A stretch of DNA of 62,181 nt from Lutibacter sp. GTDB taxonomy: Bacteria > Bacteroidota > Bacteroidia > Flavobacteriales > Flavobacteriaceae. This document shows, in pieces, positions 7,606 to 37,926 of the stretch (the first letter of the stretch is position 1; each line of letters begins with the position of its first letter). Position numbers and translations under genes: made by a program. The notes under the pieces were generated by a model. The model had not been told where the DNA came from. It worked only from the letters and a program-made list of their open reading frames with translations, and ran no database searches. The DNA lies in the NCBI RefSeq assembly GCF_013041805.1, contig NZ_JABDRI010000001.1:1-62181 (forward strand), read 5' to 3'.

Positions 7606-8499
7606 TTATCCGTTTTTCTGATAAACTCTAAGCCAATCAACATACATATACTGAGGAAATTTACTAGTTGAATCAGGATAACCAGCCCACGTACCTCCAA
7701 CAGCAACATTCAAAAGAATAAAGAATTCTTTATGAAATTCAGACATTTCATCATCTTTTATTGACATTGATGCAAATTCTACTCCATCAACAAACCATGA
7801 AACCTTATTTTCGTCCCATTCCAATTCAAATACATGAAATGCATCAGCAAATTTACCTTGATTTAATTTGAAGGAAGCCGCACCCATACTTGCATGTGAA
7901 TTTGATTTATCAGCATAGTGAATATTAGCCTCTATAACTGAATCATTTTTTGAACCATATAATTCGAAAATATCGATTTCACCAGATTGTGGCCAAGGTG
8001 TATCACCTCCATTTTCATTTATATTAGTTCCTAACATCCAAAAAGCTGGCCAAATTCCTGTGCCAAAAGGAAGCTTAGCCCTCGCTACAATCTTACCATA
8101 TTTCCAAGATTGTTTATTGGCGGTATGTAATCTAGCCGATGAATAATTACCCATTCCATGTTCATCACTCTCGTGAATCGCTTTTATGGTAAGACATCCA
8201 TTTTCGATATAGGCATTTTTACTACTATTTGTGTAACGTTGCCACTCACCATTGAAATGCCCTGCTTCTAATACTTGAAAATTCCAATTATTTTTATCAA
8301 TAGAATCGGTTTCAAACTCATCTGACCACGCTAACTTCCAATCATTACCAGGCTCAAAAATAAATTCCTTTTTATTTATAGTGGGCTTCATAACTTTTTC
8401 TTGATCAATTTTATTCTTGTTATTTTCTTTATAAGCACAAGAAAATAAGGTGATTGAAATTAATGTGATACTTATAAAACCGAATACTATTTTTTTCAT
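7606..8499 (-). CDS. GH16 beta-1,3-glucanase lipoprotein (laminarinase-like)
   Basis: 297 residues with a lipoprotein signal peptide (Cys21, LFSCAYK). A single GH16 jelly-roll domain fills residues about 50-297: WSDEFE, WPAFWMLGTN (150-159) and the active-site GEIDIFE with nucleophile Glu174, Asp176 and acid/base Glu179. GH16 enzymes with this pattern are endo-beta-1,3(4)-glucanases, consistent with a laminarin PUL. The residues after Cys21 (AYKENN) lack the acidic surface-export signal, so a periplasmic location is more likely than the cell surface, unlike the second GH16 at 26195-27256. It is the last gene of the locus, convergent with the repressor operon. The gap to that operon (7519-7605) shows no clear hairpin. 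Confidence 0.92.
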   Translation of the reverse strand: MKKIVFGFISITLISITLFSCAYKENNKNKIDQEKVMKPTINKKEFIFEPGNDWKLAWSDEFETDSIDKNNWNFQVLEAGHFNGEWQRYTNSSKNAYIENGCLTIKAIHESDEHGMGNYSSARLHTANKQSWKYGKIVARAKLPFGTGIWPAFWMLGTNINENGGDTPWPQSGEIDIFELYGSKNDSVIEANIHYADKSNSHASMGAASFKLNQGKFADAFHVFELEWDENKVSWFVDGVEFASMSIKDDEMSEFHKEFFILLNVAVGGTWAGYPDSTSKFPQYMYVDWLRVYQKNG

Positions 8500-8560
8500 G
8501 TGTTTAAATTTATTTGTAATTAATTTATATTCAATTGATGCACTATTTAAGAACCTTAAA

Positions 8561-10780
8561 TTAATGATGGTATTGTATTTTTTTCTTCTTCATTTTCAAC
8601 GGATTCCCACCTATATAAATTTCAAATTCGCCCTCTTCAACAATCCATTTATTATCCATTCCAACAAAAGATAATCCTTTTGAAGTAATTCTAAATTTTA
8701 CAGTTTTAGAAGCTCCCACCTTTAGCTTAATTTTTTGAAAACCAACTAATTTCTTTGAATCTGGAGAAACAGAGGCAACCATATCTTTGATAAAAAGTTC
8801 AACAACTTCTTTACCATCCATTTTTCCGGTATTTTTTACTTGAACACTTATTTCAAGTGCATCATCATGGCCTTTTAAAGTATCCTTTGAAATTGTAAAT
8901 TTAGAATATTTAAAATTGGTATATGATAATCCATAACCAAACTCATATTGTGGGTAAAACCCATCAAATCCCCAATTTACATCGCGTATATCTGTTTTTT
9001 TATGATAATATGTTAAGTAATTCCCTGAATATTTTGGGTAGGTATAAGGCAATTTTCCACTTGGGTTTATTTTACCAAAAAGCACATCAGAAATTACTTT
9101 TCCACCTTCTTGACCTGGAAGGTACGCCATAATTACCGCATCAACTAATGGTTCAATTTCACGCATAATTCTAGGTCTTCCTTGTACCATGACCAAAATT
9201 ATTGGTTTGCCTGTTTTAGAGAGTTTTTTAACTAATTCTTGTTGAACTTTAGGCAAGTCTAACTCATTAATATCAGAAGGTTTTTCAGTCGCAGGAATTT
9301 CTCCTACACAAACCACTATATAGTCAACTTTTTTAGCTTTTTTTATAGCCAACTTGGTATTAATATCGTCCAAATAACTCGTTCCTTCAGCAAACTCAAC
9401 ATTTGAACTTCCAATTTCCTTTTGAATAGCCTCTAAAATAGTTAATTTGGAGTGATCATTATAAAGTGTATCTCTACCTAAAAATGTCCTAGACCAAGCT
9501 CCATTCAATCTATTTATAGAGTTCGCAGCATAACCAGTTACCAACACCTTCTTCTTTTTATTTAAAGGCAAAACAACTGTTGTATTTTTTAGTAATGTAA
9601 TTGCTTCGCTAGCTGTCTTATAATTTTCAGCAATATGTTTTTCACTACCAATCTTGGGAAAATCGCTTGGGTTGTTATAAGGAACATCAAATAAATTTAG
9701 TTGAAATTTAAGACGTAACACTCTCGTCACTGCATCGTCAATTCTATGTATTGGTATTTCATTCTTTTCAACTAAATCAACAATAACGTCAACTATTTTA
9801 GCATCAAAAGGATTCATAATTAAATCCAAACCAGCATTTACAGCTTGTTTAGTTGCATCTCTAAGGTCTTTAGCAGTTTGGTGAGCCTCTACTAAAAACT
9901 CCACATCACTAAAGTCTGAAATTACGACACCTTTAAATCTTAATTCGCCTTTTAATATATCTGTAATATAATATCTATTCGAGTGACAAGGAACACCATT
10001 TACTGCATTAGAGCTAATCATAACTCCCATTGCACCTTCTTTAATTGCATTCTCAAAAGGCGGCAAAAAATACTGTCTTAAATTTATTTCTGGAATAATT
10101 GCATTCGCTCTATCCTTCCCATTTCTGCCAGCTCCATACCCTAGAAAATGTTTTAGGCATACCGCCGTATTTGAAACATTCCCTACATCATTCTGCTGAG
10201 AACCTCTTACATAAGCATTCGTCATTTCAGAAACTAAATGAGGATCTTCCCCAAAACTTTCTGAAATTCGACCCCATAATGGACTCATAGCAACATCTGC
10301 ATTCGGATTGAAGTTCCAAGGCAACGAAGCGGATTTTGATTCGTAAGATGTTATGTTGGCACTCATTTCTGTCAACTCTGGATTCCACGTTGCTGCTAAC
10401 GCTATTTGATGTGGAAACATGACTGAACCCGCAACATAATTTGCCCCATGAATATTATCTATTCCATATAAAATAGGAATTCCTAATCGTGATTTTTTAA
10501 TTGCAGCGTCTTGAATGGTTTTTAGTATTCTATACCATTCTTTAGAGTCAGCTAAATAGCCTGGCGTATTATGAATAGACCCAACATTTAAATCAATAAT
10601 ATATTTTTTAAACTTTTTAACATCGAAAACAGCACTATCTCTTTCATCCCAGTAATCACCTTTTAAAATAGTTGGTAAACCAATATTAAGCATTTGGCTT
10701 GCCTTTTCTTTTAAGGTCATTTTAGCCAATAAAACTTTTATCCTTTTTTCTGCTTGAGTTTCTTCTGCTACAGGTTCCAT
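8561..10780 (-). CDS. bglX: GH3 beta-glucosidase without signal peptide
   Basis: 739 residues. Two-domain GH3 followed by a fibronectin III-like domain (about 655-735). The (beta/alpha)8 domain has KHFLGYG (210-216) and the nucleophile Asp289 in GVVISDF. The second domain carries CVGEIPATEKPSDI, a candidate acid/base loop. The family removes beta-linked glucose from oligosaccharide non-reducing ends. Unusually, translation begins at MEPVAEETQAEKR, directly at the catalytic fold, with no signal peptide; no in-frame ATG lies between this codon and the upstream stop 24 bp away. If the start is right the enzyme is cytosolic, in keeping with the cytosolic GH17 and phosphorylase genes of this locus. 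The bglX symbol is by family similarity only. Confidence 0.88.
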   Translation of the reverse strand: MEPVAEETQAEKRIKVLLAKMTLKEKASQMLNIGLPTILKGDYWDERDSAVFDVKKFKKYIIDLNVGSIHNTPGYLADSKEWYRILKTIQDAAIKKSRLGIPILYGIDNIHGANYVAGSVMFPHQIALAATWNPELTEMSANITSYESKSASLPWNFNPNADVAMSPLWGRISESFGEDPHLVSEMTNAYVRGSQQNDVGNVSNTAVCLKHFLGYGAGRNGKDRANAIIPEINLRQYFLPPFENAIKEGAMGVMISSNAVNGVPCHSNRYYITDILKGELRFKGVVISDFSDVEFLVEAHQTAKDLRDATKQAVNAGLDLIMNPFDAKIVDVIVDLVEKNEIPIHRIDDAVTRVLRLKFQLNLFDVPYNNPSDFPKIGSEKHIAENYKTASEAITLLKNTTVVLPLNKKKKVLVTGYAANSINRLNGAWSRTFLGRDTLYNDHSKLTILEAIQKEIGSSNVEFAEGTSYLDDINTKLAIKKAKKVDYIVVCVGEIPATEKPSDINELDLPKVQQELVKKLSKTGKPIILVMVQGRPRIMREIEPLVDAVIMAYLPGQEGGKVISDVLFGKINPSGKLPYTYPKYSGNYLTYYHKKTDIRDVNWGFDGFYPQYEFGYGLSYTNFKYSKFTISKDTLKGHDDALEISVQVKNTGKMDGKEVVELFIKDMVASVSPDSKKLVGFQKIKLKVGASKTVKFRITSKGLSFVGMDNKWIVEEGEFEIYIGGNPLKMKKKKIQYHH

Positions 10781-10804: not shown

Positions 10805-12328
10805 TTATAAGCTGCTAAATGCATTGTCTAACCAACTCATTCGCTCAGAATACCAGCTTTTTAAATGACTAACTTCTTCTTCATAAGTATTATAGACTAC
10901 CGGATTTGGCCAAACATAAATTCCTAAAGTTTCCCATACCATATCATTTTCTTGCTGAGACCATTTCAACTGATTCGCATAAAAATCCATTTTATCTAAA
11001 ATGTATATTTCATTTTCTTTGAAGTAATTAAAACGTGTTTTAACTTTTTCTACAAAAGATTCATCTTCAAAAAGTCTTGAATACCATTTATGATCTTTCA
11101 CCCAAAACCCTGTGGCTAACTCACATTCTGAATAGTTAACATTCCCAAAAGAAAGATCAAAATCCCAAAGCGGACCCATTTTAATTTTTTGACCAGGAAT
11201 TACATTTAAAAATATACTTGAAAAACTTTTTGAGTCTTGATTCTTAGTAATTTCACTAATTAAATACCAGTCTATAAAACTATCAACATCAATATAATTG
11301 GCATACCCTTCTGTTGGATGTTTAAATTGACTGCTGTATAAATTTGTTTCAAATTCATTTAATAAATTTTTTACATAATTATACTCGTTACTATTTAATT
11401 CTAATTCTGGTTCCTTAATATTAATCAAAAAATTTCCCGTATGAAAATATACATCATCAGCATCTAACCTATCAAATTGATCTATCTCTAATAAATATCC
11501 ACTACCTTCTAAATTAACTCTGCTTATTCCTTCTTCAACTTTTTGAGTTATATTATAGGTTCCGTTATAACTATCGTTCAAATAAACCTCTACAAAATTA
11601 GATTCAGGTGTCCAATCCAAATTACTTAAATAGCCCATTTCAAATGCAATTGAATTTCGCATCATAGTTTTATCAGAATATTCAGCTAAAAACAACCACT
11701 TTTTTTCAGAAGGCATACCCAGAAATTCGTGCTCATCAGATAATTTAAGTTGATATGGCTTTTTTGGGTGTACATACCAAGTAGAATTACCTCGTCCTCT
11801 AATTTTCATTGAAGAATCGTTCAAGCTGTTAAAATTTCTACCGCCATCAATTATAATACTCCCATCAACATAGTCTTCTTTAGAATCTATGGGTGCATTT
11901 TGATTGGTGCTTAGATAAATAATAGGAAGTCCTGTAAATTTCGTAACATCTATTTCATATGAAATTTGAGCACCGCTAGAAGATTTTACTGTATATGAGA
12001 CAATACCCGTAAAATCATTTTTAGTAATTGCACTTGTTTGAGGAACATTGTTTACAGCTATAGATGATCCACTAAACTCGAAATTAGCAATTAACTCAGA
12101 GACATCAATATTTTGAGGAATTCTTCCAATAATTTTATTCCCTTCAATTGATAAATATACATTCGATAGTAAGTTAGGATTGTTTAAAGTTAGAAAAGAA
12201 AATTCACTAATTTCAACATTTTCAACAACATCAATTATAGGTTCACTATCATTATTACAAGCATTTAGAGCAAGAATTAAAATGATTAATCTTAAAACAT
12301 ATAAAAGCTTATTTTTTATAAATTCCAA
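10805..12328 (-). CDS. CotH-like kinase-fold surface lipoprotein
   Basis: 507 residues, probable TTG start; no in-frame ATG precedes the signal peptide. Lipobox LNAC (Cys24) is followed by NNDSEP, an acidic stretch that suits surface export. Residues about 38-130 form a beta-rich domain resembling DUF5018/Ig-like modules. The CotH domain follows: RGRGNSTW (177-184), KKPYQLKL (189-196), SDKTMMRN and GPLWDFDLSFGN (385-396, candidate metal-binding). CotH proteins of spore formers are atypical protein kinases. In Bacteroidetes they occur near carbohydrate loci with unknown role. Placed between a GH17 lipoprotein and GH3, it probably acts on or binds the glucan or a surface protein, but no substrate can be named. 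Confidence 0.82.
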   Translation of the reverse strand: MEFIKNKLLYVLRLIILILALNACNNDSEPIIDVVENVEISEFSFLTLNNPNLLSNVYLSIEGNKIIGRIPQNIDVSELIANFEFSGSSIAVNNVPQTSAITKNDFTGIVSYTVKSSSGAQISYEIDVTKFTGLPIIYLSTNQNAPIDSKEDYVDGSIIIDGGRNFNSLNDSSMKIRGRGNSTWYVHPKKPYQLKLSDEHEFLGMPSEKKWLFLAEYSDKTMMRNSIAFEMGYLSNLDWTPESNFVEVYLNDSYNGTYNITQKVEEGISRVNLEGSGYLLEIDQFDRLDADDVYFHTGNFLINIKEPELELNSNEYNYVKNLLNEFETNLYSSQFKHPTEGYANYIDVDSFIDWYLISEITKNQDSKSFSSIFLNVIPGQKIKMGPLWDFDLSFGNVNYSECELATGFWVKDHKWYSRLFEDESFVEKVKTRFNYFKENEIYILDKMDFYANQLKWSQQENDMVWETLGIYVWPNPVVYNTYEEEVSHLKSWYSERMSWLDNAFSSL

Positions 12329-12353: not shown

Positions 12354-12380
12354 AAATAGTAAAATGTGTTTTTACTATTT
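12354..12380 (-). terminator. Hairpin at the end of the GH17 lipoprotein gene
   Basis: AAATAGTAAAA (12354-12364) pairs perfectly with TTTTACTATTT (12370-12380) around a 5-nt loop. It overlaps the GH17 stop codon. Read leftward, the stem ends in a run of T interrupted by AG. It could cause partial termination or protect the upstream mRNA end, separating CotH/GH3/GH16 from the genes before them. Confidence 0.5.
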
Positions 12381-13641
12381 ATTCTTCCAAACTAATTTCA
12401 GAAGGAATTTTAAGAATATTTTCTAACAAAGCTTCACTATCTCCATTGTAAGATTTGGTAATTTTATTTCCATTTCTTGTAAGTCCATTAAAAACACCTT
12501 TATCAACGGCATCCCATAAAACATATTTAGCTCTTCCATCGATTGTTATTAATCCAAAATGATTTTCAGAACCTAATGGATTTTGAGCATCCTTCCATTT
12601 TTCATCAAAAGCTTCAAAATAAAAACAAGACATGCCTTCTGAGTTTGTCCAATCTCGCATATGATTGTAATATAATTTTGCTTTATATTCATCAGCGGCG
12701 CCAGCACCTGTTGAACCATATTGGGTTGTTCCAGCAATACTAGCCCAACCTGTTTCTCCAATATGTATCGGTTTTGACACGCCAACACTTTTAATATAAT
12801 TAGCCGTTGCATTATATTGAGCAATAGCATATTCTTTTGCTCTCAACATGGAAGCATCTACTTTTTCCTGAAGCGTAAGATTTTCTTGATCTTTAGGAAC
12901 TTTCCAAAACGCATCATTGTAATGCGTATCATGAAAAGGGTATGTATGCATTGAAACAAAATCAACCGCATTCAATAATTTAGTTAAATCTTCCAAATGA
13001 TAACTCTCATCTCCACCTCCCCAAGAAGCAAAATTATCAGAACTAGTTATCCATAAATCAGAAGGTAAATCTCCAGATTTTTTTAATTTTTGTAAATGGT
13101 TCACCCATTTTAAAATAATGGTTGGACTCACAAAGTAACTACTCGCCCAATGAACCATTGCTTCATTACCAACTGCAATAATTTTAACAATATCTGAATA
13201 TTTGTTTGCCATTGTGATTGCTCTTTCTATTTCTGCTGTATTCGCTTCAATATCTTCGGCTTCATGATTTGGATTTGCTGTCCAAGCATTTTCACAATCT
13301 ATCCAAGTACCCAACATGACATACATTTCAAAAGAAACATCTTCTCTTTTTAATTGAGAAATAGCCTCTAATAAATTTGAAGCTTGTTTAAGTTTTGTAT
13401 TATAAGTACGTAAAACTTTAATGCCCATTGCATTTAAAATTTTCATGTCGTCCTTTAATTCTTCAATTGAAGGCTGAACATCTCTTGTATTTTCTCTATA
13501 ACCACCATAAGATATTGCTAGATAATCAGGATTTCCTAAAATATCCTTAGCTGAAATTTCACTTTTTTGTACTGTTGGTGTACAGCTATAAATTGTTATT
13601 GATGCTATCAGTAATAAAATTATCTTAAAAGGGTTTTTCAT
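12379..13641 (-). CDS. GH17 beta-1,3-glucanase lipoprotein
   Basis: 420 residues with lipobox YSC (Cys20), then TPTVQKSE, without the acidic surface signal, so probably periplasmic. The TIM barrel carries the clan GH-A pair: acid/base Glu160 in AVGNEAM and nucleophile Glu295 in HIGETGWAS. SMHTYPFH (230-237) is the conserved GH17 strand. About 60 residues follow the barrel without a recognised domain. GH17 enzymes act on beta-1,3-glucan as endo-glucanases or glucanosyltransferases. This is the first of three GH17 genes in a row and the only one exported. A hairpin overlaps its stop codon. Confidence 0.92.
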   Translation of the reverse strand: MKNPFKIILLLIASITIYSCTPTVQKSEISAKDILGNPDYLAISYGGYRENTRDVQPSIEELKDDMKILNAMGIKVLRTYNTKLKQASNLLEAISQLKREDVSFEMYVMLGTWIDCENAWTANPNHEAEDIEANTAEIERAITMANKYSDIVKIIAVGNEAMVHWASSYFVSPTIILKWVNHLQKLKKSGDLPSDLWITSSDNFASWGGGDESYHLEDLTKLLNAVDFVSMHTYPFHDTHYNDAFWKVPKDQENLTLQEKVDASMLRAKEYAIAQYNATANYIKSVGVSKPIHIGETGWASIAGTTQYGSTGAGAADEYKAKLYYNHMRDWTNSEGMSCFYFEAFDEKWKDAQNPLGSENHFGLITIDGRAKYVLWDAVDKGVFNGLTRNGNKITKSYNGDSEALLENILKIPSEISLEE

Positions 13642-13675: not shown

Positions 13676-14593
13676 TTATTTCATTACAAGCTTTGGAGTT
13701 CTATCTACGTAATACAACCCCCAATGCTTTTCGGGCTCATATTCTTCGTCCGATCCTTTCCAAGGTTCATCAAAAGCTTCAAAAACAAATGTTAAAATAT
13801 CATCTTCAGTATTCCAATTCATCAAATCATTATAGTAAATTTTCTGAAACTCTTCACTTACATTTGTGGGATCTATTCCCCTTCCATTTGAATTAGTTGC
13901 CCAACCAGCCTCAGTAATCACAACCAACTTATCAGGATATTTATTGGCAATAGCATAATAATTTTGCTTTGTATATTCTAATGCATCGTGAATATTTTTA
14001 TATTCCCAAACAGGATACGTATGAATTGATATAAAATCTACTACGTCAACTAACTCTTTTAACTTATCAAGCCAAGGGACATAGTTTTCACAAAATGTAA
14101 CAGGTTGCTTTGCGCTCTTTTTTATTTGTTTAACATAGTTAATAACACTTTTTACGGGTACATAGTGATCAGTCCAATCAACACAAGCTTCATTTCCAGC
14201 AGATAACGAAAAAATAATATCGTCATACTCGTCAGCTAAATGAATTAGTTTTTCAATTCTTTGCTCATTTACTAGCTTATTTTTAACCAATTCTTCTTCT
14301 GAAAAAATATGAGTTTCCCAAGGGCAACCGAAATTATTCATTTCAGCAATAATGTATGCCCCTAGCATAACTTTAAAATCTAGTTTTTCATTTTTAATAA
14401 CGTTCAATACCATTTCAGCATGCTCATCACAATCATATAAACGTAGATATTTCCAATTTCCTTGAAGAATTAACAAATCTTCCTTAACCTCTTCATAACT
14501 AGGAGATAAACCTCCAGGCTGTTGTCCTTCTCTAAAACCTGAGTAGCAAATAGCCCTGCCTTTTTCTATGTTGAGTACTTTATTATATTTCAT
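13676..14593 (-). CDS. GH17 beta-1,3-glucanase, cytosolic
   Basis: 305 residues, beginning MKYNKVLNIEKGRAICYSGF with no signal peptide. GH17 barrel with acid/base Glu135 in SAGNEAC, nucleophile Glu228 in VITEAGWAT, and SIHTYPVWE (189-197). It is about the size of a bare catalytic domain. The missing leader is shared with the next GH17 gene (14631-15539) and the phosphorylase at 18266-21712, so oligosaccharides appear to be processed inside the cell after uptake by the GPH symporter encoded just upstream. Whether it hydrolyses or transfers cannot be read from sequence. The two cytosolic GH17 proteins differ clearly, so this is not a recent duplication. Confidence 0.9.
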   Translation of the reverse strand: MKYNKVLNIEKGRAICYSGFREGQQPGGLSPSYEEVKEDLLILQGNWKYLRLYDCDEHAEMVLNVIKNEKLDFKVMLGAYIIAEMNNFGCPWETHIFSEEELVKNKLVNEQRIEKLIHLADEYDDIIFSLSAGNEACVDWTDHYVPVKSVINYVKQIKKSAKQPVTFCENYVPWLDKLKELVDVVDFISIHTYPVWEYKNIHDALEYTKQNYYAIANKYPDKLVVITEAGWATNSNGRGIDPTNVSEEFQKIYYNDLMNWNTEDDILTFVFEAFDEPWKGSDEEYEPEKHWGLYYVDRTPKLVMK

Positions 14594-14630: not shown

Positions 14631-15539
14631 TTAAAATTTAAGATTTTCATCTTTATCCCATAATCCCCAATAAGCTCCTACATCACCTTCTGCTCCTACT
14701 TTCCATGATTCATCAAACGAGGAAAAATAAAACATTTCAATATCATCTTTTGCCGACCATGCTTGTGCATTGATAAAATATTTCATAGCATTTTCGTTTG
14801 ATGCAAGAGCTCCTTTAAGTCCTCCACCTTCACTTGGCCAACCAGTTTCAGTAATTATTACTCTTTTTCCATTTCCAGCTTGCGAAGCTTGACCGAACAT
14901 TTCTCTCATATGATTTAAAGAATATTCTAAAGGACAACCTTCCCAATAAGGATAGCAATTCGCTAGAATAACATCACAAGCTTCCGTTATTCTTGGACGA
15001 GCAGAAAATTCATAATAGGCATCAACATAGCCTACAGGAATTCCCGGTAAAGCCTCTTTAACTCGATTTATATAGCCTATTAACTGATCTTCGGTTAAAT
15101 CTCCACGATACATTACCTCATTTCCAACTGCAGCTATATCTACACAACCTTCCTTCGCTAATGCTATAAGTCCTTCTATTTCAGCCTCATTCATTTCTAA
15201 ATCATCTCCTAACCATGCGCCTACCAACGTTTTTATTCCATTTTTGTGTGCAACGCGAGGAATGTATTCATTTCCTTCTACACAAGAAAATGAGCGTACC
15301 CAATTTGTATATGGTTTAATTATTTCTATTCTTCTTTGTACTTGTTCTTCAGTAATTATATCACCTGGCTTTTGACCATCTTCATACATACTAAAGCAAA
15401 GGCCGTGCATGCCATTATCTAAAGTTTTTCTCCATAATTTTTTTAATTCCTGTTCTGATAATTTACCAAAATCTACTCCACTATAATCTGAATAATCTGT
15501 TTTACTAAGTGAAAATTGACGTTCTTTTCTGTATGACAT
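14631..15539 (-). CDS. GH17 beta-1,3-glucanase, cytosolic
   Basis: 302 residues with a hydrophilic N-terminus (MSYRKERQFSLSKTDYSDYS) and no signal peptide. GH17 signatures: acid/base Glu141 in AVGNEVMY, nucleophile Glu231 in ITETGWPSEGG, and ANCYPYWEG. The ITETGWPS form is closest to classical plant/fungal GH17. The gene lies 24 bp after the GPH transporter and 37 bp before the second cytosolic GH17, forming an import-and-digest unit. It probably shortens imported laminari-oligosaccharides for the phosphorylase or the GH3; that order is inferred. Confidence 0.9.
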   Translation of the reverse strand: MSYRKERQFSLSKTDYSDYSGVDFGKLSEQELKKLWRKTLDNGMHGLCFSMYEDGQKPGDIITEEQVQRRIEIIKPYTNWVRSFSCVEGNEYIPRVAHKNGIKTLVGAWLGDDLEMNEAEIEGLIALAKEGCVDIAAVGNEVMYRGDLTEDQLIGYINRVKEALPGIPVGYVDAYYEFSARPRITEACDVILANCYPYWEGCPLEYSLNHMREMFGQASQAGNGKRVIITETGWPSEGGGLKGALASNENAMKYFINAQAWSAKDDIEMFYFSSFDESWKVGAEGDVGAYWGLWDKDENLKF

Positions 15540-28290: not shown

Positions 28291-30318
28291 TTAATTAGTA
28301 AGGGTATAATCATCAAAGTAATATACTGAACCATCTCCAGCAACACCAAAATCAAAGAATACTACAACTCTTACATAATCTGCAGGTGCAGCTCCGCTAA
28401 AGTCATATTCTAAAACTTCCCAACCATCTGATGTTGTTGTATTCATATCTACTTCATGTGTGATACTAGCATCAGCATTCTCAATTTTTACTTTCACAAC
28501 GGCACCAACCTTTTGAGACCATGTTTTTACACTTATTTTATTATAAGTATCCAAATCTAATGTAGTACCTAATTCTCTAGTAACTCCTGCCCATACTTCT
28601 GCTCCACTCGTTTTTGTGAATTGAGCAACGCTTGCATTAACAAGTCCTAAGCCGGTAGGTAAATCATCAAGAGTAATAACTCCAGCTGAGGCATTTCCAA
28701 AAGGAAGTAATTCTGCTGCTCCCTCAAAGTCTTCAAATACCGTTGGTGGAGTTCCATTATTACTTAACTCTATATTATCGTAATAATATACTGAATCATC
28801 TCCTGAAACACCAAAATCAAAAAATACTACAACTCTAACATAATCTGCATCTGCAGCTCCACTAAAGTCATATTTTAAAACTTCCCAAGCATCCGATACT
28901 GTTGAATTCATATCAACTTCATGTGTAATACTAGCATCAGCATTCTCAATTTTAACTTTTATTACGGCCCCAACTTTTGGAGACCAAGTTTTTACGCTAA
29001 TATTACTATATGTAGCAATGTCTAAAGGTGTACCTAGTTCTCTTGTAACTCCTGCCCAAACTTCTGCTCCATTTACTTTATTAAATTGAGCTACATTATC
29101 AGTAACTATTCCTAAACCTGAAGGCAAATCATTTAATGTAACAACTTCTGCAGAAGCATTTCCAAAAGGAAGTAATTCTGCTGCTCCTTCAAAATCTTCG
29201 ACCATTACTTTAGCAAATGCACCTTCTGACAGAAAATCTTGTCTAATGTTATCAATGTAAAAAGTCCAATCTGCACTTCCATCTCCAGATAATCCTATAT
29301 CAAAAAACAATACTATCTTTTGATATGTTTTAGAAAGGTCAATACCACTAACATCAAAAGTTACTGTTTCCCAAGCACTGTTACCTTGTGTTGTCGCTTC
29401 TACTTCGTAGAAAATACCACCATCATCAAGATTTTCTAATTTTAACAATACTTTTCCTCCAGATCTTGGCGACCAAACATCCATTTTAATAGCATTCTTA
29501 GTTGAAAAATCTATAGGTGCTGAAAGTGTAATAACATTACCTGCCCATACCTCTGGTGCACCCTTTACAATTTGACCAACTGTACTTGAACTATTACCAT
29601 CAGTATCTGGGTTGTCTATAACAGCATTAGAAGCTCCTCCAAATCCTTGAAAAACACTTGCATCAAAAATTTCAAAATCAATTGGTAATTCTACCGGTGA
29701 AGATATTGTAACAACTTGAGTTAATTCCGAAGATGCAGTTCCCCCACTAAGAGCTACTACTTTTATAGTAAAATCTCCTACACTTGGATATTCAAAACTC
29801 ACTGAACCATCTGCACTTAGAGGTGTAGGTACTTCAGCATCATTTGATGTGTCAAAATATACTAAAAACGAAGTAGCAAAATCAGCAGTTGCAGATACAT
29901 TCATAAGAAATGGATTAGCCCCATCTATTGTAGCATTTATTTGTATATTCTCTGGTGCTCTGAATGACACTACTAGATCTTGTGAAACGGCTGTTTTTAA
30001 ACCAGTAATCCCGGTAGCTTCTATTCCAATTGGATAAGAACCCTCAGCATAGGTATGCTGAACGCTTTCTCCTTGATTAAGGCTTGCAGCATCACTTGAA
30101 CCATCACCAAAGGTTACACTATAGGATACTCCTCCTTCAGAATTAGGCGTAATTGTTACCAATCCTGTATTGTCTTGTGTTATTAAAAACTGTGCAGATA
30201 CATTTGCAGGTGCCTGAATGTTATCAACAAAGTTTGCGTCATTAAGATCGTCTGAGCAACTAATAAAGAAGATCAAAGCAAAACTTAAAAAACTTACTAT
30301 ATATTTTAATGTTTTCAT
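28291..30318 (-). CDS. Surface glycan-binding lipoprotein with three CBM-like repeats
   Basis: 675 residues; lipobox ISC (Cys21) followed by SDDLND, a strong surface-export-like signal. Two PKD/Ig-like domains (about 36-120 and 121-208) are followed by three copies of a roughly 150-residue beta-sandwich: 212-361, 372-520 and 527-675. Each contains a version of AEVWAGV, ISVKTWS, VKIENADA and VVVFFDFG; copies 2 and 3 are nearly identical, copy 1 is diverged. The repeats look like CBM4/CBM9-type modules, so this is a multivalent glucan-binding (SGBP) protein working with SusCD. No catalytic motif is seen. Confidence 0.82.
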   Translation of the reverse strand: MKTLKYIVSFLSFALIFFISCSDDLNDANFVDNIQAPANVSAQFLITQDNTGLVTITPNSEGGVSYSVTFGDGSSDAASLNQGESVQHTYAEGSYPIGIEATGITGLKTAVSQDLVVSFRAPENIQINATIDGANPFLMNVSATADFATSFLVYFDTSNDAEVPTPLSADGSVSFEYPSVGDFTIKVVALSGGTASSELTQVVTISSPVELPIDFEIFDASVFQGFGGASNAVIDNPDTDGNSSSTVGQIVKGAPEVWAGNVITLSAPIDFSTKNAIKMDVWSPRSGGKVLLKLENLDDGGIFYEVEATTQGNSAWETVTFDVSGIDLSKTYQKIVLFFDIGLSGDGSADWTFYIDNIRQDFLSEGAFAKVMVEDFEGAAELLPFGNASAEVVTLNDLPSGLGIVTDNVAQFNKVNGAEVWAGVTRELGTPLDIATYSNISVKTWSPKVGAVIKVKIENADASITHEVDMNSTVSDAWEVLKYDFSGAADADYVRVVVFFDFGVSGDDSVYYYDNIELSNNGTPPTVFEDFEGAAELLPFGNASAGVITLDDLPTGLGLVNASVAQFTKTSGAEVWAGVTRELGTTLDLDTYNKISVKTWSQKVGAVVKVKIENADASITHEVDMNTTTSDGWEVLEYDFSGAAPADYVRVVVFFDFGVAGDGSVYYFDDYTLTN
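28294..29199 (-). repeat. Two-copy coding repeat (CBM-like modules 2 and 3)
   Basis: The DNA for residues 374-520 (28759-29199) and 528-675 (28294-28737) of the 675-aa binding protein is a tandem duplication of about 440 bp. Long runs match between units, for instance around GCAACTTCT/TTCCAAAAGG and the block for VKIENADASITHEVDM. Its near identity suggests a recent duplication or ongoing homogenisation, and it is prone to copy-number change. Confidence 0.8.
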
Positions 30319-30334: not shown

Positions 30335-31819
30335 TTAATATCCAGGATTATTTTCCCATTGATTTCCTGATAATAATATTTCTTCAACAGGTATTGGGAA
30401 CAATTCATGTTTTCCTACCTGAAATCCATCAATTTCAGCTCCAGCTCTACCCGTCCTTACTAAATCAAAGAAACGATGACCTTCACCTACTAATTCAACT
30501 CGGCGTTCTTTCCAAATAGCAGTAGTTAAATTATTTCCTGTTGTTGTAACATCACTTAACATTGCTCTATTACGAACCTCATTTAAATATCCTTGAGCTC
30601 TTGAATCACTGATTCCACCTCTATTCAAAGCTTCTGCAGCCATTAGTAACACATCAGCGTATCTAATCGCTCTATAATTATCTGGATTAGTTAAAGCAGC
30701 ATCTCCATTATTTAAATCGCCTTGTCTAGCCATTATTTTTCTATTGAAATAACCTGTTTGCTCATAGCCTTGAGTATTATCCCATGACGATCCTGGATTA
30801 TCTTCAATATATTTTGCCATATCTAAGATAGAATATTCTAAACGAATATCTCCGTCTTCAAATGCATCAACAACTTCTTGAACAGGTACATTAAAACTGT
30901 AACCATTATCAAAGAATCCAGTAGAATCAAAAAATCCTCTTGGCCCATTAAAAAATGCTGCATAATTACCTTCAAGACATTGGAAACAACCATAGCTACC
31001 TCCATCAACATCTGAATACTGAATTTCGAACACTGATTCTATATTATTTTCATTATAGCGTTCGAACATATCAGGGTATTCTTCTGTAGTTAATAATCTG
31101 TGCGGTCCGTTGTTTATTAAATCTTCTAGTACATCTGCAGATTCTGCAAATTTGTCTTGATATAAATAAACTTTTCCTAATAAGGCTTGAGCAGCTCCTT
31201 TAGTTACGCGTCCCGTTTCATATCCCGTATAATTTAAATTGTTAGCAGCAAAAATTAAATCTTGCTCAATTAATGCATACACCTCTGATTTAGGAGTTCT
31301 AGGAATACTAAACTGATCTCCAAATCGGATTCGTTGATCAACCAACATTGGCACATCACCCCACCATTTTACTAAAATGAAGTTGTAATAAGCTCTTAAA
31401 AATCTAGTTTGAGCAATCACATTTGTTTTATTTGAAAAATCAGTTTTATCTTGAAATTCCATAATATAATTACAACGATTTACGGCCTCATACATCCATT
31501 GCCACATCGTTCTTAATCCACCGTCACTTTGACCAACTGCAGAATGAATCATATCATCTATTTGCTGAACATAAGGTGAATCTGTTGCGCTTTCTCCTCC
31601 ACACAATGTATTATCTGAAGCTATCTCTGCAAATTGAACAAATTTAGATGTTGATTGCAAATAATCATAGGCGGCAACTAATGCATCCTGATAATCTTCC
31701 TCTGTATTAAAAAAGTCTTCAGAGTTTGGGTCTAATGCATCCACATTTACAAAATCATCACTACAAGAATAGATGACAAAAACCGTAAAGAGGATATAAA
31801 TAATTTTTAAATTTTTCAT
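30335..31819 (-). CDS. susD: SusD/RagB-family glycan-binding lipoprotein
   Basis: 494 residues; lipobox YSC (Cys19) then SDDFVNVD, a classic SusD start with surface signal. The helical TPR-like scaffold shows DALVAAYDYLQ, RAYYNFILVKWWGDVPM, RVTKGAAQALLGKVYLYQ, YRAIRYADVLLMAAEALN and the C-terminal WKERRVELVGEGHRFFDLVRTG, all typical of SusD_RagB. The protein is the lid of the SusC transporter and binds incoming oligosaccharide. It lies 10 bp after susC. The symbol marks the family; the substrate is inferred as beta-1,3-glucan from the neighbours. Confidence 0.96.
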   Translation of the reverse strand: MKNLKIIYILFTVFVIYSCSDDFVNVDALDPNSEDFFNTEEDYQDALVAAYDYLQSTSKFVQFAEIASDNTLCGGESATDSPYVQQIDDMIHSAVGQSDGGLRTMWQWMYEAVNRCNYIMEFQDKTDFSNKTNVIAQTRFLRAYYNFILVKWWGDVPMLVDQRIRFGDQFSIPRTPKSEVYALIEQDLIFAANNLNYTGYETGRVTKGAAQALLGKVYLYQDKFAESADVLEDLINNGPHRLLTTEEYPDMFERYNENNIESVFEIQYSDVDGGSYGCFQCLEGNYAAFFNGPRGFFDSTGFFDNGYSFNVPVQEVVDAFEDGDIRLEYSILDMAKYIEDNPGSSWDNTQGYEQTGYFNRKIMARQGDLNNGDAALTNPDNYRAIRYADVLLMAAEALNRGGISDSRAQGYLNEVRNRAMLSDVTTTGNNLTTAIWKERRVELVGEGHRFFDLVRTGRAGAEIDGFQVGKHELFPIPVEEILLSGNQWENNPGY

Positions 31820-31829
31820 AATTCTTGAA

Positions 31830-34800
31830 TTAAAATTTTAAGTTAACACCTAATAATAATGACGCTGCATTTGGGTAAAACCCTTGGTCTATTCCACCAC
31901 CAATTGGTGCACCTGTTCCTGCTGTTGGATCATACCCACTATACTTAGTTAAAGTAAGTAAGTTGCTCCCTGAAAGATATACACGTAACTTATCAACACT
32001 TGAATCTTCTGAATCTGTATTAAAAGTATATCCTAATTGTACGTTTTGTAAACGAACGAATGAACCATCCTCTACATAAAAATCAGAAAACAGCGTACTT
32101 GGAGTCGCTCCAGCTGTAACTCTTGGTGCGCTATTAGTTGTTCCTTCTCCAGTCCAGCGATCTAAATAGGAATTAGGCTTATTAACTGATTGTTGGTTAC
32201 GTTCGTAATTACGAACAATTTCATTTCCTACTGATGCAAAGGCATAAGCAGCAAAATCCCATCGTTTATAATCAACAGAGATATTAAGACCCATTGTAGC
32301 AGCTGGTAAAGGATTTCCAAGATCTACTCTATCATCTAAATTTATTACGCCATCTCCATTTTGATCTACAAATCTAAAATCTCCTGGTGCAGTTGCAATA
32401 TCAGTAACTGCGGCATTGTCTATTTCGTTTTGATTTTGGAAAATACCATCAGTTTCATATCCAACAAAATAACCTAAAGGATATCCTGCTTCCATTCTTG
32501 AAATAGCTGGTTGTGAAATTCCAAATCCTCCTCCTTCAAGATATTCACCATCCCCACTTACAGCAACTACTTCATTTTTTATTGCAGTAACGTTGTACTT
32601 GATACTAAATTTAAAATCATCATTCAACTCGTCTGAATAACCAATTGCAAATTCAATACCTTCATTTTCTACAATTCCTGCATTTACAAATGGTGCTGCA
32701 CCTGTACCTAATAATCCAGATATTTGCGGAGACACCAATAAATCTTCAGTTCTTCTTTTAAAGTAATCTGTAGTTATATCAATTTTATTATCTAAAAGTC
32801 GTAAATCAAATCCTATATCCAATGTTTTTTGTTTTTCCCATTTAATTTCTGGATTAGAAATTGGACCACTTGCAACTCCAAAATATTCATCTTCTCTATC
32901 ATTCCCTCCAAAGAAATAAGTTCCTTCACCGGTAAGTAATGATGTAAATCTATAATCACCAATTCTATCATTACCTAATATTCCATAAGAAACTCTCATT
33001 TTTAATAATTGGAAAAGATTATTATCACTCATAAAATCTTCATCTGAGATAATCCACCCCACTGATCCTGAAGGGAAATATCCAAACTTGTTACCTGGAC
33101 CAAATCTTGTAGAACCATCTCTACGTACTACTGCAGATAATAAATATTTACCTTTATAATCATATTGTATTCTTGTAAAATAGGATAGCAATCTAGCATC
33201 AAAAGTTGGGTTTCTTCCTAATTCTTCGTAAATATTCTCTGTTTCTAAAGCTTGATCTACAAATGCATTTGCTACATTATTATCTGTAATATCACGACCT
33301 ATCCATCCAGAAAATAAACCTGTTGTTTTGAAAACTGAAGTACCTAAAAGCACATTAAGTTTATGTTCATCATTAAATGTATTATCATATTTAATGAAAC
33401 CATCAAAAGTGTAATCTCTAAAAATATTAGCACCTTCAAAAACACTACTTCTAAAAGTATTAAAAACCTTACCAGCACCGTAATTATCAATAGGGTCGAA
33501 ACTTGTTGAATTTACTTCAGCATAATTAAATTGAATATTAGCCTCAGCCGTAAAATGTTCTAAAAAAGTATATCCTACTCCCGCAAAACCGTTAAATTTC
33601 ACTACTTTATTTGTATTGTAGGTATTAGCCATTTGAGCTATTGGATTAATTACTTCCGCACCTAATCCATCAGCTAATGAAAACTCTCCATTTCCATCTC
33701 TAACAGGAATGTTCGGAGCCATATTCAATGAGTTGAAAAGGACAGATCCTAAAGCGTTTTCTGGCAGATTTTTTTTGTTTGTTATGGTTGCAGTAATTCC
33801 AGACTTAAATTTAAAATTCTTTAAGAAATCTAAATTATAACCTAAAGCGGAAGTATATCTTGTAAAATTTGATTTACTACCTCCAACAATACCATCTTGA
33901 GTAAGATAAGAAGTACTATAAGAATAAGATGATTTTTCTCTACCTCCTTTTAATGAAAGGTTATGACTTTGAATTGGTGCAGTTTCAAAAACTTCATTTT
34001 GCCAATTTGTTCCAACACCTAAATTTGATACATCCGTAAATGGAGGTACACTACCACCTGCAGCAAAAGCTTCATTTACTATTAATGCGTATTCTGTAGC
34101 ATTAAGCACTGGCATTTTACGAGTTGTTCTCTGAAAACCCATATAAGCATTATATTCAGCAGTTAATGGCATTTCTTTTCGCCCTGTTTTTGTTGTTATT
34201 AAAATAACCCCATTCGCAGCTCTCACACCATAAATACCTGCTGTAGCATCTTTTAATATGTTCATACTTTCAATGTCGTTAGGGTTTACTACACTAAGAT
34301 CCTCAACAACGTTTCCATCTACTAAAATTAAAGGTCTACTGTCTCCGTTTGTCGATACACCTCTAATACTAATGGTTGAACTTCCACCAGGAGAACCTGA
34401 ATTAGTAGTAACATTTACACCTGCAACTTGTCCTTGCAAAGCTTGCTCAACCTGAGTGGGTTTAAGCTTTTCAATAGTTTCTGCACCAACAACCGTAACG
34501 GCTCCTGTAATTTCCTTTTTAGTTTGTGTTCCATACCCAATAACCACTACCTCATCAAGAGATTGTGTGTCATCAGTTAAAACAACTTGTAAAAAATCTG
34601 CACTGTTTACAACAACTTCTTTTGTTACAAACCCTAAATATGAGAAAACTAACACTTCCCCATTTTGTACTTCCATAATTGTAAAATTACCATCAAAGTC
34701 AGTTGAAACACCTTTGGTGGTATTTTTAACGACTATTGAAACTCCAGGTAAAGGACCTCCACTGGCATCAGTTACAATTCCTTTAACTTCATAATTTTGC

Positions 34801-34856
34801 GCGTAAGAAAATACGCCGGCAAAACATAAAAAAATTGATAATAAAAATGATTTCAT
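31830..34856 (-). CDS. susC: SusC/RagA-type TonB-dependent outer-membrane transporter
   Basis: 1,008 residues with a signal peptide ending near SYAQ. Residues about 22-98 are the CarboxypepD_reg-like domain (VKGIVTDASGGPLPGVSI, GVSTDFDGNF). SLDEVVVIGYGTQ is the TonB-box-proximal motif, and the plug domain (about 110-225) has GVNVTTNSGSPGGSSTISIRG and NPNDIESMNILKDA. The rest is the beta-barrel ending in LGVNLKF, with a C-terminal aromatic. There is no N-terminal signalling extension, so control is by the upstream regulator rather than by an anti-sigma relay. The protein forms the SusCD import complex for beta-glucan oligosaccharides. Confidence 0.96.
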   Translation of the reverse strand: MKSFLLSIFLCFAGVFSYAQNYEVKGIVTDASGGPLPGVSIVVKNTTKGVSTDFDGNFTIMEVQNGEVLVFSYLGFVTKEVVVNSADFLQVVLTDDTQSLDEVVVIGYGTQTKKEITGAVTVVGAETIEKLKPTQVEQALQGQVAGVNVTTNSGSPGGSSTISIRGVSTNGDSRPLILVDGNVVEDLSVVNPNDIESMNILKDATAGIYGVRAANGVILITTKTGRKEMPLTAEYNAYMGFQRTTRKMPVLNATEYALIVNEAFAAGGSVPPFTDVSNLGVGTNWQNEVFETAPIQSHNLSLKGGREKSSYSYSTSYLTQDGIVGGSKSNFTRYTSALGYNLDFLKNFKFKSGITATITNKKNLPENALGSVLFNSLNMAPNIPVRDGNGEFSLADGLGAEVINPIAQMANTYNTNKVVKFNGFAGVGYTFLEHFTAEANIQFNYAEVNSTSFDPIDNYGAGKVFNTFRSSVFEGANIFRDYTFDGFIKYDNTFNDEHKLNVLLGTSVFKTTGLFSGWIGRDITDNNVANAFVDQALETENIYEELGRNPTFDARLLSYFTRIQYDYKGKYLLSAVVRRDGSTRFGPGNKFGYFPSGSVGWIISDEDFMSDNNLFQLLKMRVSYGILGNDRIGDYRFTSLLTGEGTYFFGGNDREDEYFGVASGPISNPEIKWEKQKTLDIGFDLRLLDNKIDITTDYFKRRTEDLLVSPQISGLLGTGAAPFVNAGIVENEGIEFAIGYSDELNDDFKFSIKYNVTAIKNEVVAVSGDGEYLEGGGFGISQPAISRMEAGYPLGYFVGYETDGIFQNQNEIDNAAVTDIATAPGDFRFVDQNGDGVINLDDRVDLGNPLPAATMGLNISVDYKRWDFAAYAFASVGNEIVRNYERNQQSVNKPNSYLDRWTGEGTTNSAPRVTAGATPSTLFSDFYVEDGSFVRLQNVQLGYTFNTDSEDSSVDKLRVYLSGSNLLTLTKYSGYDPTAGTGAPIGGGIDQGFYPNAASLLLGVNLKF

Positions 34857-35118
34857 ATATGATTGAATTAAGTTTGGATAAATATAAGGTTAAAATTGTG
34901 TTAATAGTTAAAATTTAACCTATACAAAAAACATACAAGGTCACAAATAAAAACACAGAGCTATAAATATGCAAGGCTATCGGTTTAATTTTAGGGTTAT
35001 TTAACATTAACATTTAACCATAAATAAGGCAATATTAAGTACAAGCTATAACGTTATAGTTTTCATTTTGTTGAGGTAATGTTGTAGTAAATATCCGTTT
35101 TGTTGTGATATTATTTAT
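34857..35118 (-). promoter_or_regulatory. susC upstream region with candidate operators
   Basis: 262 bp between the regulator stop and susC. It holds a perfect 14-bp palindrome, CTATAACGTTATAG, at 35046-35059. It also has four GGTTA-type boxes: GGTTAAA at 34888-34894 facing TTTAACC at 34914-34920, and GGTTA at 34995-34999 facing TTTAACC at 35013-35019. A leftward TATATTTA near 34880 is one base from the TAnnTTTG -7 consensus and lies about 25 bp before the ATG. I take this as the PUL promoter; which element binds the regulator is not known. Confidence 0.45.
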
Positions 35119-37926
35119 TTAAATAGCTAAAATATAAGCTACAAGACTCTTTTTATGAGCTAAACTCATCTTTTTTCGTAAGCGATAACGTTTAATTTCT
35201 ACGCTTCTAACTGAAATATTTAAAAGTGGCGCAATCTCTTTTGAAGTAAGATTCAATCGTAAATATGCACAAAATCGTAAATCATTTGGTGTTAACTCTG
35301 GATGTAATATTTTTATCTTTTTCAAGAAGTCTTTATCCGCATTATTGATTGCTTCTTCTAAAAACTCCCAATCTTTTTTATTATTTATATTTTTATCAAT
35401 AGCACTTATGGCTTGCTTATTATCTTGAGCTCCTTTTGACGATATTAATTCCTTTTTAATACTATTTAATATTTCATTCTTTTTAATAATACTCATTGTA
35501 GAAATTGTTAACTCTCTATTTTTACTTTCAATTTCTTGATTTAATTGTTCATTTTTAATTTTCATTAATCGTTTTTCCGCTTCTAATTGGTTTAGTTCAA
35601 ATTCACGGTGATTTTTCTCTATTAATAATATTTTTTGCCTTGTGTAATATTTTTTGTAGAAAAAATGAATTAGAATTAATAACAATAAAAATAAGACGAA
35701 ATAAACAAATATCATTACATAAGATACTACCCAAGGTCTAGAAATTTTAAAAGAGTAGGTTGCAATATTTGTTGATAATTTATTATTAATCTTAGCTTTT
35801 ACTTTAAAAGTATAATTTCCATAAGGTAAATTTTCAAACGAAACCTCAGAAAAGGTAGACCAACTTGTCCAATCAGTATATATACCTTCTAGTTTATACT
35901 GGTAATTTACTTCAGTATACCTATCATATTCGGGAACACTAAAAGAAAAAAATAAATTATGCTCTTTAAATTCAAAAGTGCCATCTACTGTTAGCGGAAC
36001 ACTAATTTTACTTTCATTTATAACTCTTTTATCAACCGAATTTATGTTAACCTCGAAGTCTTTATCTCTAAATTTTTCTAAATCTATAATAATATACCCT
36101 CTTAAAGTACCTAATAAGAACTTTTGATCCTCTATATGAGTAATGCTTTCATAGCCAGTAACATTACTTCTTAAAGATGCTGGCAACCATAATTTAGTTA
36201 CTTGTGGAATATTATTTAATTTTCCTTGAGAAAAATAAACTAAATTGTTGTTCGTAAATCCCCATAAAGTTTGGGTTTGATTGTTAGGTATTAACTTACC
36301 AGATATATATTCACCAGCACTAAATAGTTTTTTAGTAAAAACTGAATCTTTCTTAAAAATATCTTCTGAATCATCATACTTGAAAATTCCTTTTTCAGAT
36401 GTGTAATATAAATTGTTATTGTAAGCCGCTAAACTAGACTTTAGTCCTTTTGGCACAGTATTTTCAGTAGCATAGCTATAAATTTTAGTGAGTGTACTAT
36501 CAACTTTAATCTTAAACACTCCTTTATATTCATGACTTACTAATATGGTGTTTTTTGAAACCACTTCAAAATATCTACTTGAAATATCAAACCCTTTAAT
36601 TTTATTTCTAAATTTCCATGTATTATTCTTCTTTTCTAAAACATTTAAGCCATTGTAATTACCTTGCAGTAAAATATTTTTATTGCTTTTAACCTGTTTA
36701 ATATCCCAAGTTCCCATCAAATCAGATATCAATGAGACTTTATCATTTTTCACGATAAATGTTCCTGAATTATGCCCACAAAATAAGGTGTTATCGAATT
36801 CTTTCAATGTCCAAACTTGCCCTTTGGTTCCTTCAATAAACTTAAATTTTTGATTGCTCTCTCTCTTTTTAAAAAATAAACCTTGATTTGTTCCTAAATA
36901 AAGATTTCCATTAAAAATAGCTGAAGCATAAATGGTACCTAATTCTCCATTGATGTCATTATAAACACTAAAAGGTGAGTCCAGATTAATTACACTCACT
37001 CCATTATCTAAACCTAACCACACATTTTTAGTTGAATCTTCAAAAATCGATAAAACGGTGTTGTTGTTTAATCCATTTTTTTGACTTATTTGATAAAGAA
37101 TATTACCATTTTCATCTAAATGAAATAAACCATTTGCTATCGTCCCTAAAACAAAACTCCCATCACTCAATTGCAAACTACTATAAACACTGATAGAGTT
37201 AATCCTAGTATCAGCATCAATTTTCCATCTGTGCAATTCATCATTTTCCAAATAATAAAACCCTTTATCTTGTGTTTGAAATAGAATTCTTCTGTTTACA
37301 TAAAAAATATTAACTAATATACTATTTTGTAAAATAGGGTTGTTTGATATTAAAACCTCTTTCCCATTCTCAATTTTATATACACCATCATTCATTTTTT
37401 GAAAATAGATACTATCCTCTACTTTAAATATTTTAGGTAATTGAGTATCAGACTTTATTATTTGAAATGATTCATCAATAGTGTTAAAAATATAAATTCG
37501 ATTTAGTGATTGAAATAATACCCAAGTATCATATTCAATAATATTCCAAAATTCCTCTTCAACTAATCTATCTTCAATTTTAGCACTTAAAGAAAAGTAG
37601 TCTAAACTCCCAAACTCATTTTTCTCCCAATATCCAAACTCCATATAACTTCCGGTATAAATGCGAGAATTTATAACACTTACAGACCTAATAATTGTAT
37701 TGTTTGGTGATGGGTACAACTTCCATTTTGCACCATTAAAAGCAAGTAAACCACTGTTATTAGCAATGTAAATTTGCTGGTCGAAAGATTGAGATATGGA
37801 CCAATTTTGATTTTCTGCATTATACAGCTTAGGTGAATAATTTTCAATTGGAGGCAATTCTTGGGCTTCAAGAACTGCACAACTCAAAACAATAAAAATG
37901 TTTAAATAGGTTTTAAAAAATGTCAC
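35119..37926 (-). CDS. Membrane-bound propeller sensor with LuxR-type HTH (PUL regulator)
   Basis: 935 residues, GTG start; the codon before it is TAA, so no longer form is possible. Signal peptide 1-21, then a periplasmic two-component-regulator-type beta-propeller (repeats such as NNTVLSIFEDSTKNVWLGLDNG, about 24-650), a Y_Y_Y domain (YQYKLEGIYTDWTSWS) ending near 725, one membrane helix (about 732-757), a coiled coil (about 764-830) and a C-terminal LuxR-type helix-turn-helix (about 877-930: LTPNDLRFCAYLRLNLTSKEIAPLLNISVRSVE, read in parts). No kinase or receiver domain is present, so it signals directly from periplasm to DNA. Immediately upstream of susC on the same strand, it is the likely glucan-responsive activator of the locus. 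Confidence 0.9.
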   Translation of the reverse strand: MTFFKTYLNIFIVLSCAVLEAQELPPIENYSPKLYNAENQNWSISQSFDQQIYIANNSGLLAFNGAKWKLYPSPNNTIIRSVSVINSRIYTGSYMEFGYWEKNEFGSLDYFSLSAKIEDRLVEEEFWNIIEYDTWVLFQSLNRIYIFNTIDESFQIIKSDTQLPKIFKVEDSIYFQKMNDGVYKIENGKEVLISNNPILQNSILVNIFYVNRRILFQTQDKGFYYLENDELHRWKIDADTRINSISVYSSLQLSDGSFVLGTIANGLFHLDENGNILYQISQKNGLNNNTVLSIFEDSTKNVWLGLDNGVSVINLDSPFSVYNDINGELGTIYASAIFNGNLYLGTNQGLFFKKRESNQKFKFIEGTKGQVWTLKEFDNTLFCGHNSGTFIVKNDKVSLISDLMGTWDIKQVKSNKNILLQGNYNGLNVLEKKNNTWKFRNKIKGFDISSRYFEVVSKNTILVSHEYKGVFKIKVDSTLTKIYSYATENTVPKGLKSSLAAYNNNLYYTSEKGIFKYDDSEDIFKKDSVFTKKLFSAGEYISGKLIPNNQTQTLWGFTNNNLVYFSQGKLNNIPQVTKLWLPASLRSNVTGYESITHIEDQKFLLGTLRGYIIIDLEKFRDKDFEVNINSVDKRVINESKISVPLTVDGTFEFKEHNLFFSFSVPEYDRYTEVNYQYKLEGIYTDWTSWSTFSEVSFENLPYGNYTFKVKAKINNKLSTNIATYSFKISRPWVVSYVMIFVYFVLFLLLLILIHFFYKKYYTRQKILLIEKNHREFELNQLEAEKRLMKIKNEQLNQEIESKNRELTISTMSIIKKNEILNSIKKELISSKGAQDNKQAISAIDKNINNKKDWEFLEEAINNADKDFLKKIKILHPELTPNDLRFCAYLRLNLTSKEIAPLLNISVRSVEIKRYRLRKKMSLAHKKSLVAYILAI

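Follow-up and report, generated by a model that had tools for sequence, protein, structure and literature searches.

Most Bacteroidetes genes of glycoside hydrolase family 149 (GH149) lie in polysaccharide utilization loci (PULs) or clusters of carbohydrate-active enzymes together with GH3/GH30 and GH17/GH16 genes, and clusters combining a cytoplasmic GH17 with an MFS_2 permease have been described mainly in gammaproteobacteria (Kuhaudomlarp 2018, PMC5827456). Variant B of the laminarin PUL was defined by a SusCD pair, GH16, GH30 and at least two GH17 (PMC6298971). The Formosa laminarin PULs, for which a permease-GH17 fusion was described, are induced by laminarin (PMC6246565, 2018). GH149 laminarin PULs were listed in metagenome-assembled genomes from blooms (PMC10108472, 2023), and a GH149 laminarin cluster was shown in Muricauda (PMC13188888, 2026). 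Here, we analyzed a stretch of 62,181 nucleotides from Lutibacter sp. (GCF_013041805.1, NZ_JABDRI010000001.1, 1-62,181), hereafter called the window. Positions 7606-37926 of its minus strand carry 18 intact, co-oriented open reading frames (ORFs) that form a beta-1,3-glucan (laminarin-type) PUL with the gene content of variant B. Very probably, this is a laminarin-type PUL of known kind, with variant B content plus GH149, in which phosphorolysis in the cytosol would take place beside hydrolysis by exported enzymes.

GH149 and the predicted cytosolic branch

An earlier note on this DNA had proposed a GH149-like phosphorylase, and the 1148-aa protein in question is GH149 by sequence. It exceeded the cut-off of 1150 bits of the GH149 model (Table 1), with an alignment spanning profile positions 2-1133 of 1134, and phmmer aligned its residues 15-1146 with the structure of Pro_7066. 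The active-site motifs of the Pro_7066 type are intact (NWRD from residue 465, EWND from 647 and YWH from 952), the roles of the WND, RD and phosphate-site His motifs being taken from PMC6771811. A scan of named genomes yielded at least 589 GH149 relatives, and the motifs were kept in all of the best 80, which we studied. Leaders were judged by eye and with a crude screen of the N terminus for hydrophobicity and a lipobox, and compartments are thus read from N termini. The window GH149 shows no leader by eye, and by the screen 77 of the 80 homologues lack one, the other 3 being flagged. The window gene is the single GH149 match of its genome. Pro_7066 takes Glc to G6 as acceptors and breaks down laminaribiose (PMC5827456).

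Of 299 genomes sampled from the bacterial family, 102 had a GH149 match, which passed the cut-off in 101. We counted its company in those 64 of the 80 loci that have 8 kb or more of sequence downstream of GH149, the other 16 being excluded. GPH symporters (61/64), FbGH17A-type GH17 (59/64) and GH30 (56/64) were the usual neighbors, and 53/64 loci combined GPH with a cytosolic-type GH17, either standalone or fused to GPH (fused in 18). Sugar porters were present in 10/64 loci, GH158 and a second leaderless GH17 in 6/64 each, and a close GH3 in 4/64. The earlier note regarded such a strategy as poorly described, a view contradicted by these counts and by the loci published in 2018, 2023 and 2026. 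The locus is a further example of a published kind that is common in the family, and as such it is not surprising.

The cytosolic phosphorolytic branch probably consists of the GPH-type symporter, GH149 and the leaderless GH17 enzymes. We propose that surface and periplasmic lipoproteins of families GH16, GH158, GH17 and GH30 would cut and debranch beta-1,3-glucan, that SusC/SusD would take the fragments across the outer membrane, and that the GPH symporter would bring laminari-oligosaccharides into the cytoplasm. There, GH149 would release glucose 1-phosphate and glucose by stepwise phosphorolysis, while the two leaderless GH17 may trim or transglycosylate the oligosaccharides. A phosphohexomutase would convert glucose 1-phosphate into glucose 6-phosphate, and the sugar-porter permease would take up glucose freed outside. 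One ATP would be saved per bond phosphorolysed. The genome contains two genes of the PGM/PMM family (candidate phosphohexomutases, by family match) and one ROK-family match (a candidate glucokinase, covering profile positions 2-160 of 294 in a 250-aa open frame). The gene identities come from sequence, and the substrate, the specificity of transport, the flux and the induction are inferred.

The presence of the sugar porter points to an additional import of free glucose and, together with the exported enzymes, it suggests that phosphorolysis occurs beside, rather than instead of, periplasmic hydrolysis. The import of oligosaccharides and their phosphorolysis, as put forward in the earlier note, therefore stands as a probable cytosolic branch, but its wording "instead of complete periplasmic hydrolysis" overreaches given the exported GH30, GH158 and GH17 and the sugar porter. 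Its assignment of the symporter to GPH also needs qualifying: the gene passed the wider Pfam MFS_2 model (Table 1; cut-off 27 bits) but scored 193.5 bits with TIGR00792 (GPH), below the cut-off of 231.35, so "GPH-type" is a label by likeness. This 521-aa type is highly conserved between genera (85-90% identity in seven loci), whereas the 476-aa type of the closest relative shares only 55% identity. We considered a recent horizontal transfer, as GH149 was merely 62-65% identical in the same seven loci from other genera, and rejected it: identity at fourfold sites was low in both genes (GPH 23-45%, GH149 24-41% in five of the seven pairs), so that slow protein evolution explains the conservation of GPH.

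Leaderless GH17 and GH3 enzymes

As the earlier note had it, two GH17 of the locus (14631-15539 and 13676-14593) are cytosolic-type proteins in which we read no leader at the N terminus. The former has Tyr144, Trp199 and Glu200 beside the catalytic Glu141 and Glu231, and its 294-aa homologue in the closest locus, L002 of Lutibacter sp. GLR166, has Glu133 and Trp191. It thereby contains the set Tyr136, Trp191 and Glu192 of MlGH17B that was tied to transglycosylation (PMC11005184), the MlGH17B sequence itself lying outside our alignment. Its best solved match is the fungal transglycosylase RmBgt17A. FbGH17B, the permease-fused hydrolase of Formosa, has Met at the Tyr position, and MlGH17B forms beta-1,6 links (PMC11005184). 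The GH17 at 13676-14593 is nearer to the lipoprotein GH17, and both have Val at this position. All three GH17 matches of the genome are located inside this PUL, and 58 of 63 GH17c1 matches had no leader in the crude screen, the other 5 being permease fusions.

Among 76 related domains from the 80 loci, the standalone copies had Tyr in 56/58 cases and Leu in 2/58, whereas the permease-fused copies had Leu or Met in 16/18 and Tyr in 2/18. We rejected a reading of this split (Fisher p 2e-12) as numerous independent events, since on a tree, itself weakly supported, fusion changes only 2 times and residue class 4 times; with so few changes, the split is one between paralogues. The GH17 at 14631-15539, with the key residues of a transglycosylase that has been characterised, could pair with GH149 as MalQ pairs with MalP in the use of maltodextrin.

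The GH3 ORF begins 24 nt past the stop codon of the CotH-like gene, in the same frame, and a leader upstream is therefore not possible. The gene retains the SDF motif, and its reading frame is complete. The segment between the CotH stop codon and the KMTL motif of GH3 measures 81 nt in the window versus 146 in L002, and is thus 65 nt shorter. Some match to the window GH3 was found in 34 of the 38 genomes of the genus. In other genomes, all 24 congeneric orthologues with at least 70% identity had a hydrophobic leader, which ended in a lipobox-like Cys in 23 (one of the 24, L089, is from the genome of L002). The window GH3 being the exception, either the gene or the assembly has lost the leader. 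The difference at the start of GH3 rests on one assembly of this species, for which a deletion and an assembly error are both candidates. The absence of a leader noticed in the earlier note is thus accurate for this copy and, among the congeners read, peculiar to this assembly; it is not a conserved cytosolic design.

Direction of flux, substrate and partner enzymes

Several points weigh against cytosolic phosphorolysis as proposed here. GPH or a cytosolic-type GH17 was missing in 11/64 loci, and since we studied the nearest 80 out of at least 589 loci, the synteny counts favor loci similar to ours. Several of the supporting matches (the HTH, two GH17 and TIGR00792 for the symporter) were below curated cut-offs, and the substrate of the symporter is a predicted one. 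Kinetic tables for GH149 in PMC5827456 cover the reverse reaction, and the authors of the 2026 Muricauda study discuss GH149 together with enzymes whose action precedes uptake, contrary to a place in the cytosol (PMC13188888). An in vivo test of GH149 phosphorolysis was not found in the literature searched, which comprised accessible parts of papers and few subscription papers. If degradation were mainly hydrolytic, the exported enzymes would free glucose for the sugar porter, while GH149 and the cytosolic GH17 would serve mainly for synthesis or a storage-like recycling. The sugar-porter permease and the exported GH30, GH158 and GH17 would suit such a route, GH149 reactions are reversible (PMC5827456), and a role in energy storage was suggested for cytosolic GH17 (PMC11005184). 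We nevertheless consider it unlikely, as 53/64 of the GH149 loci have both GPH and a cytosolic-type GH17, versus 10/64 with the sugar porter. Slightly less probable still is that the true substrate is another glucan, for example, a mixed-linkage or a fungal beta-1,3/1,6-glucan. The related Formosa PULs respond to laminarin (PMC6246565), even though mixed-linkage glucans may be substrates of GH16-based variants (PMC6298971) and the locus contains two GH16 and one GH158.

Cytosolic phosphorolysis beside exported hydrolysis may also be refined. The GH17 at 14631-15539 and GH149 would form a MalQ/MalP-like pair if the former rebuilt or remodelled short oligosaccharides for continued phosphorolysis. 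The Tyr/Trp/Glu set tied to transglycosylation (PMC11005184) and the solved match to RmBgt17A agree with this, as does the prevalence of Tyr in standalone copies compared to Leu/Met in the fused ones, to which the hydrolase FbGH17B belongs by its Met. However, the split reflects paralogy of few events and brings no independent evidence, and a helper is not strictly needed, as Pro_7066 handles acceptors of the size of glucose and laminaribiose (PMC5827456). Moreover, MlGH17B makes beta-1,6 links (PMC11005184), whereas the GH149 enzyme EgP1 took only the beta-1,3 disaccharide (PMC5827456). We therefore hold this refinement to be possible but doubtful. A broader version is more speculative: flavobacterial laminarin PULs would hold a beta-1,3 counterpart of MalQ/MalP, with a Tyr-type cytosolic GH17 feeding GH149 and a permease-fused Leu/Met GH17 acting as hydrolase, and here GH3 would have moved to the cytosol through the loss of its leader.

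Gene inventory and comparison with known systems

Families were assigned with Pfam and NCBIfam profiles, phmmer and profile searches against the PDB, blastp, and Foldseek on a predicted model. The lipobox, GH16 and GH3 motifs and the term "clan-A" are used in their customary sense. The genes listed in the earlier note for a beta-1,3-glucan PUL were found where it had placed them, and its set of SusCD, GH16, GH30, GH17 and GH3 was borne out by profile or phmmer matches, with GH16 present twice and GH17 as the lipoprotein. Beyond that list, the locus encodes GH158, a 337-aa lipoprotein, the sugar porter, the CotH-like protein, two putative glycan-binding lipoproteins and the Y_Y_Y sensor (Table 1). 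One flank carries a plus-strand HTH/S24 regulator together with an exonuclease, and the other a peroxiredoxin-like gene; no carbohydrate genes were present among the flanking genes tested on both sides, so the interval fits the cluster.

Table 1. Genes of the beta-1,3-glucan PUL in the window, with the matches on which their assignment is based
Feature	Position	Strand	Evidence
Y_Y_Y sensor, LuxR-type HTH match at C terminus, probable PUL regulator	35119..37926	-	Pfam Y_Y_Y 42 bits, over cut-off; GerE 20.7 bits, below 23.5 cut-off; GTG start
SusC/RagA TonB-dependent receptor	31830..34856	-	TIGR04056 838 bits, over cut-off
SusD-like lipoprotein	30335..31819	-	PF07980, PF14322; leader ends YSC
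PKD-containing putative surface glycan-binding lipoprotein	28291..30318	-	PF00801 25.3 bits, cut-off 23.5; leader ends ISC
Second putative glycan-binding lipoprotein	27350..28255	-	Pfam search: no match; blastp 2.5e-8 to GH16 at 26195; leader ends TGC
GH16 lipoprotein, probable endo-beta-glucanase	26195..27256	-	PF00722; EIDIME motif
GH30 lipoprotein, probable beta-1,6-glucosidase (debranching)	24705..26183	-	PF02055 240 bits; leader ends VSC
Sugar-porter family MFS permease, monosaccharide-type	23135..24673	-	TIGR00879 333.8 bits, cut-off 237.8
GH158 lipoprotein, probable endo-beta-1,3-glucanase	21787..23106	-	phmmer to GH158(Pro) and 6pal; leader ends FSC
GH149 beta-1,3-glucan phosphorylase, leaderless	18266..21712	-	NF058639 1808.5 bits; PDB 6hq6; WND/RD/His motifs
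Clan-A glycoside-hydrolase-like lipoprotein, 337 aa, nearest GH158 and GH2 barrels	17189..18202	-	PF02836 30.6 bits, cut-off 21
GPH-type symporter, separate from GH17 (no fusion)	15564..17129	-	PF13347 (MFS_2) 211.5 bits, cut-off 27
Leaderless GH17, MlGH17B (transglycosylase) type	14631..15539	-	phmmer 4.3e-36 to 4wtp; key residues
Second leaderless GH17, other clade	13676..14593	-	PF00332 26.0 bits, below 28.2 cut-off; blastp 5.7e-37 to lipoprotein GH17
GH17 lipoprotein, FbGH17A type	12379..13641	-	phmmer 1.5e-179 to 6fcg; leader ends YSC
CotH-kinase-like lipoprotein	10805..12328	-	PF08757 145.8 bits; TTG start; leader ends NAC
GH3 without export leader	8561..10780	-	PF00933, PF01915
GH16 lipoprotein	7606..8499	-	PF00722; EIDIFE motif

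Two of the three GH17 matches to Pfam (26.9 and 26.0 bits) were under the cut-off of 28.2. The identity of the lipoprotein GH17 is nevertheless secure because of its match to the solved 6fcg, and that of the second leaderless GH17 because it is homologous to the lipoprotein. GH158 showed full-length homology to solved members of its family (residues 36-438 with 9oro, 7.6e-82; 45-439 with 6pal, 1.9e-70). GH30 probably has a debranching role, by analogy with FbGH30 (PMC6246565). The second glycan-binding lipoprotein is related in its N-terminal region to that of the GH16 at 26195-27256.

The 337-aa lipoprotein fits no single CAZy family clearly. In the profile search against the PDB, its best match was to GH158 (2.5e-11), over residues 67-203 only, with GH2 enzymes next from 1.1e-9. 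Its predicted model (mean pLDDT 73.8, residues 276-320 poorly modelled) gave a Foldseek match of 4.1e-14 to 9p26 (TM 0.62, 19% identity), and GH2 enzymes also scored high. Its orthologues were found in 8/80 loci, with 58-76% identity. The CotH-like gene was matched in 15/38 genomes of the genus and in only 2/80 GH149 loci. Identity was at least 60% in 10 genomes, its own included, and in 5 of these 10 (G000, G020, G007, G022 and G034) it adjoins a close GH3. The match in G021 is split in two pieces (69% and 49%), and G032 has merely a short broken CotH remnant beside its GH3. A full-text literature search on CotH in PULs pointed to one paper, on a gut species. Elsewhere in the genome, contig C85 (G000) has a third GH16 match beside a GH3-like match (31752-34183, near the contig end; L087 holds part of it). 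The GH3-like match runs over one stop codon, and the two may form a second laminarin locus, of the GH16-GH3 type. Outside the PUL, an AcrB-type RND efflux pump is encoded at 47174-50356 of the window.

Laminarin ranks as a major carbon store of the sea, and the bacterial family that consumes much of it often carries GH149; the window contributes a further instance and a fuller inventory of genes. Its predicted GH149 phosphorylase shares full-length homology and active-site motifs with Pro_7066 (PDB 6hq6). L002, the closest locus among the 80, has the 12 genes from GH16 to GH3 in the same order, including CotH and both leaderless GH17. It differs in that its contig ends before SusCD, its GH3 has a lipoprotein-type leader where the window GH3 has none, and its GPH and sugar porter are 55% and 42% identical to those of the window. 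With the Muricauda lutaonensis PUL (PMC13188888, PMC11005184), the window shares GH149, the lipoprotein GH17 (MlGH17A), GH30, an MFS permease and the leaderless GH17 (MlGH17B), and a LuxR-type regulator is often shared as well. In contrast, gene order differs, with the window GH30 near SusCD, GH158 and CotH are present in the window, and a full-length GH2 was not found there. With variant B (PMC6298971) and the Formosa PULs (PMC6246565), the SusCD pair, GH16, GH30 and at least two GH17 are common ground, and Formosa genomes likewise have GH149 near SusCD-type genes. Compared to these, the window has its symporter and GH17 as separate genes and adds GH158, the 337-aa clan-A lipoprotein, the CotH-like gene and a second leaderless GH17.

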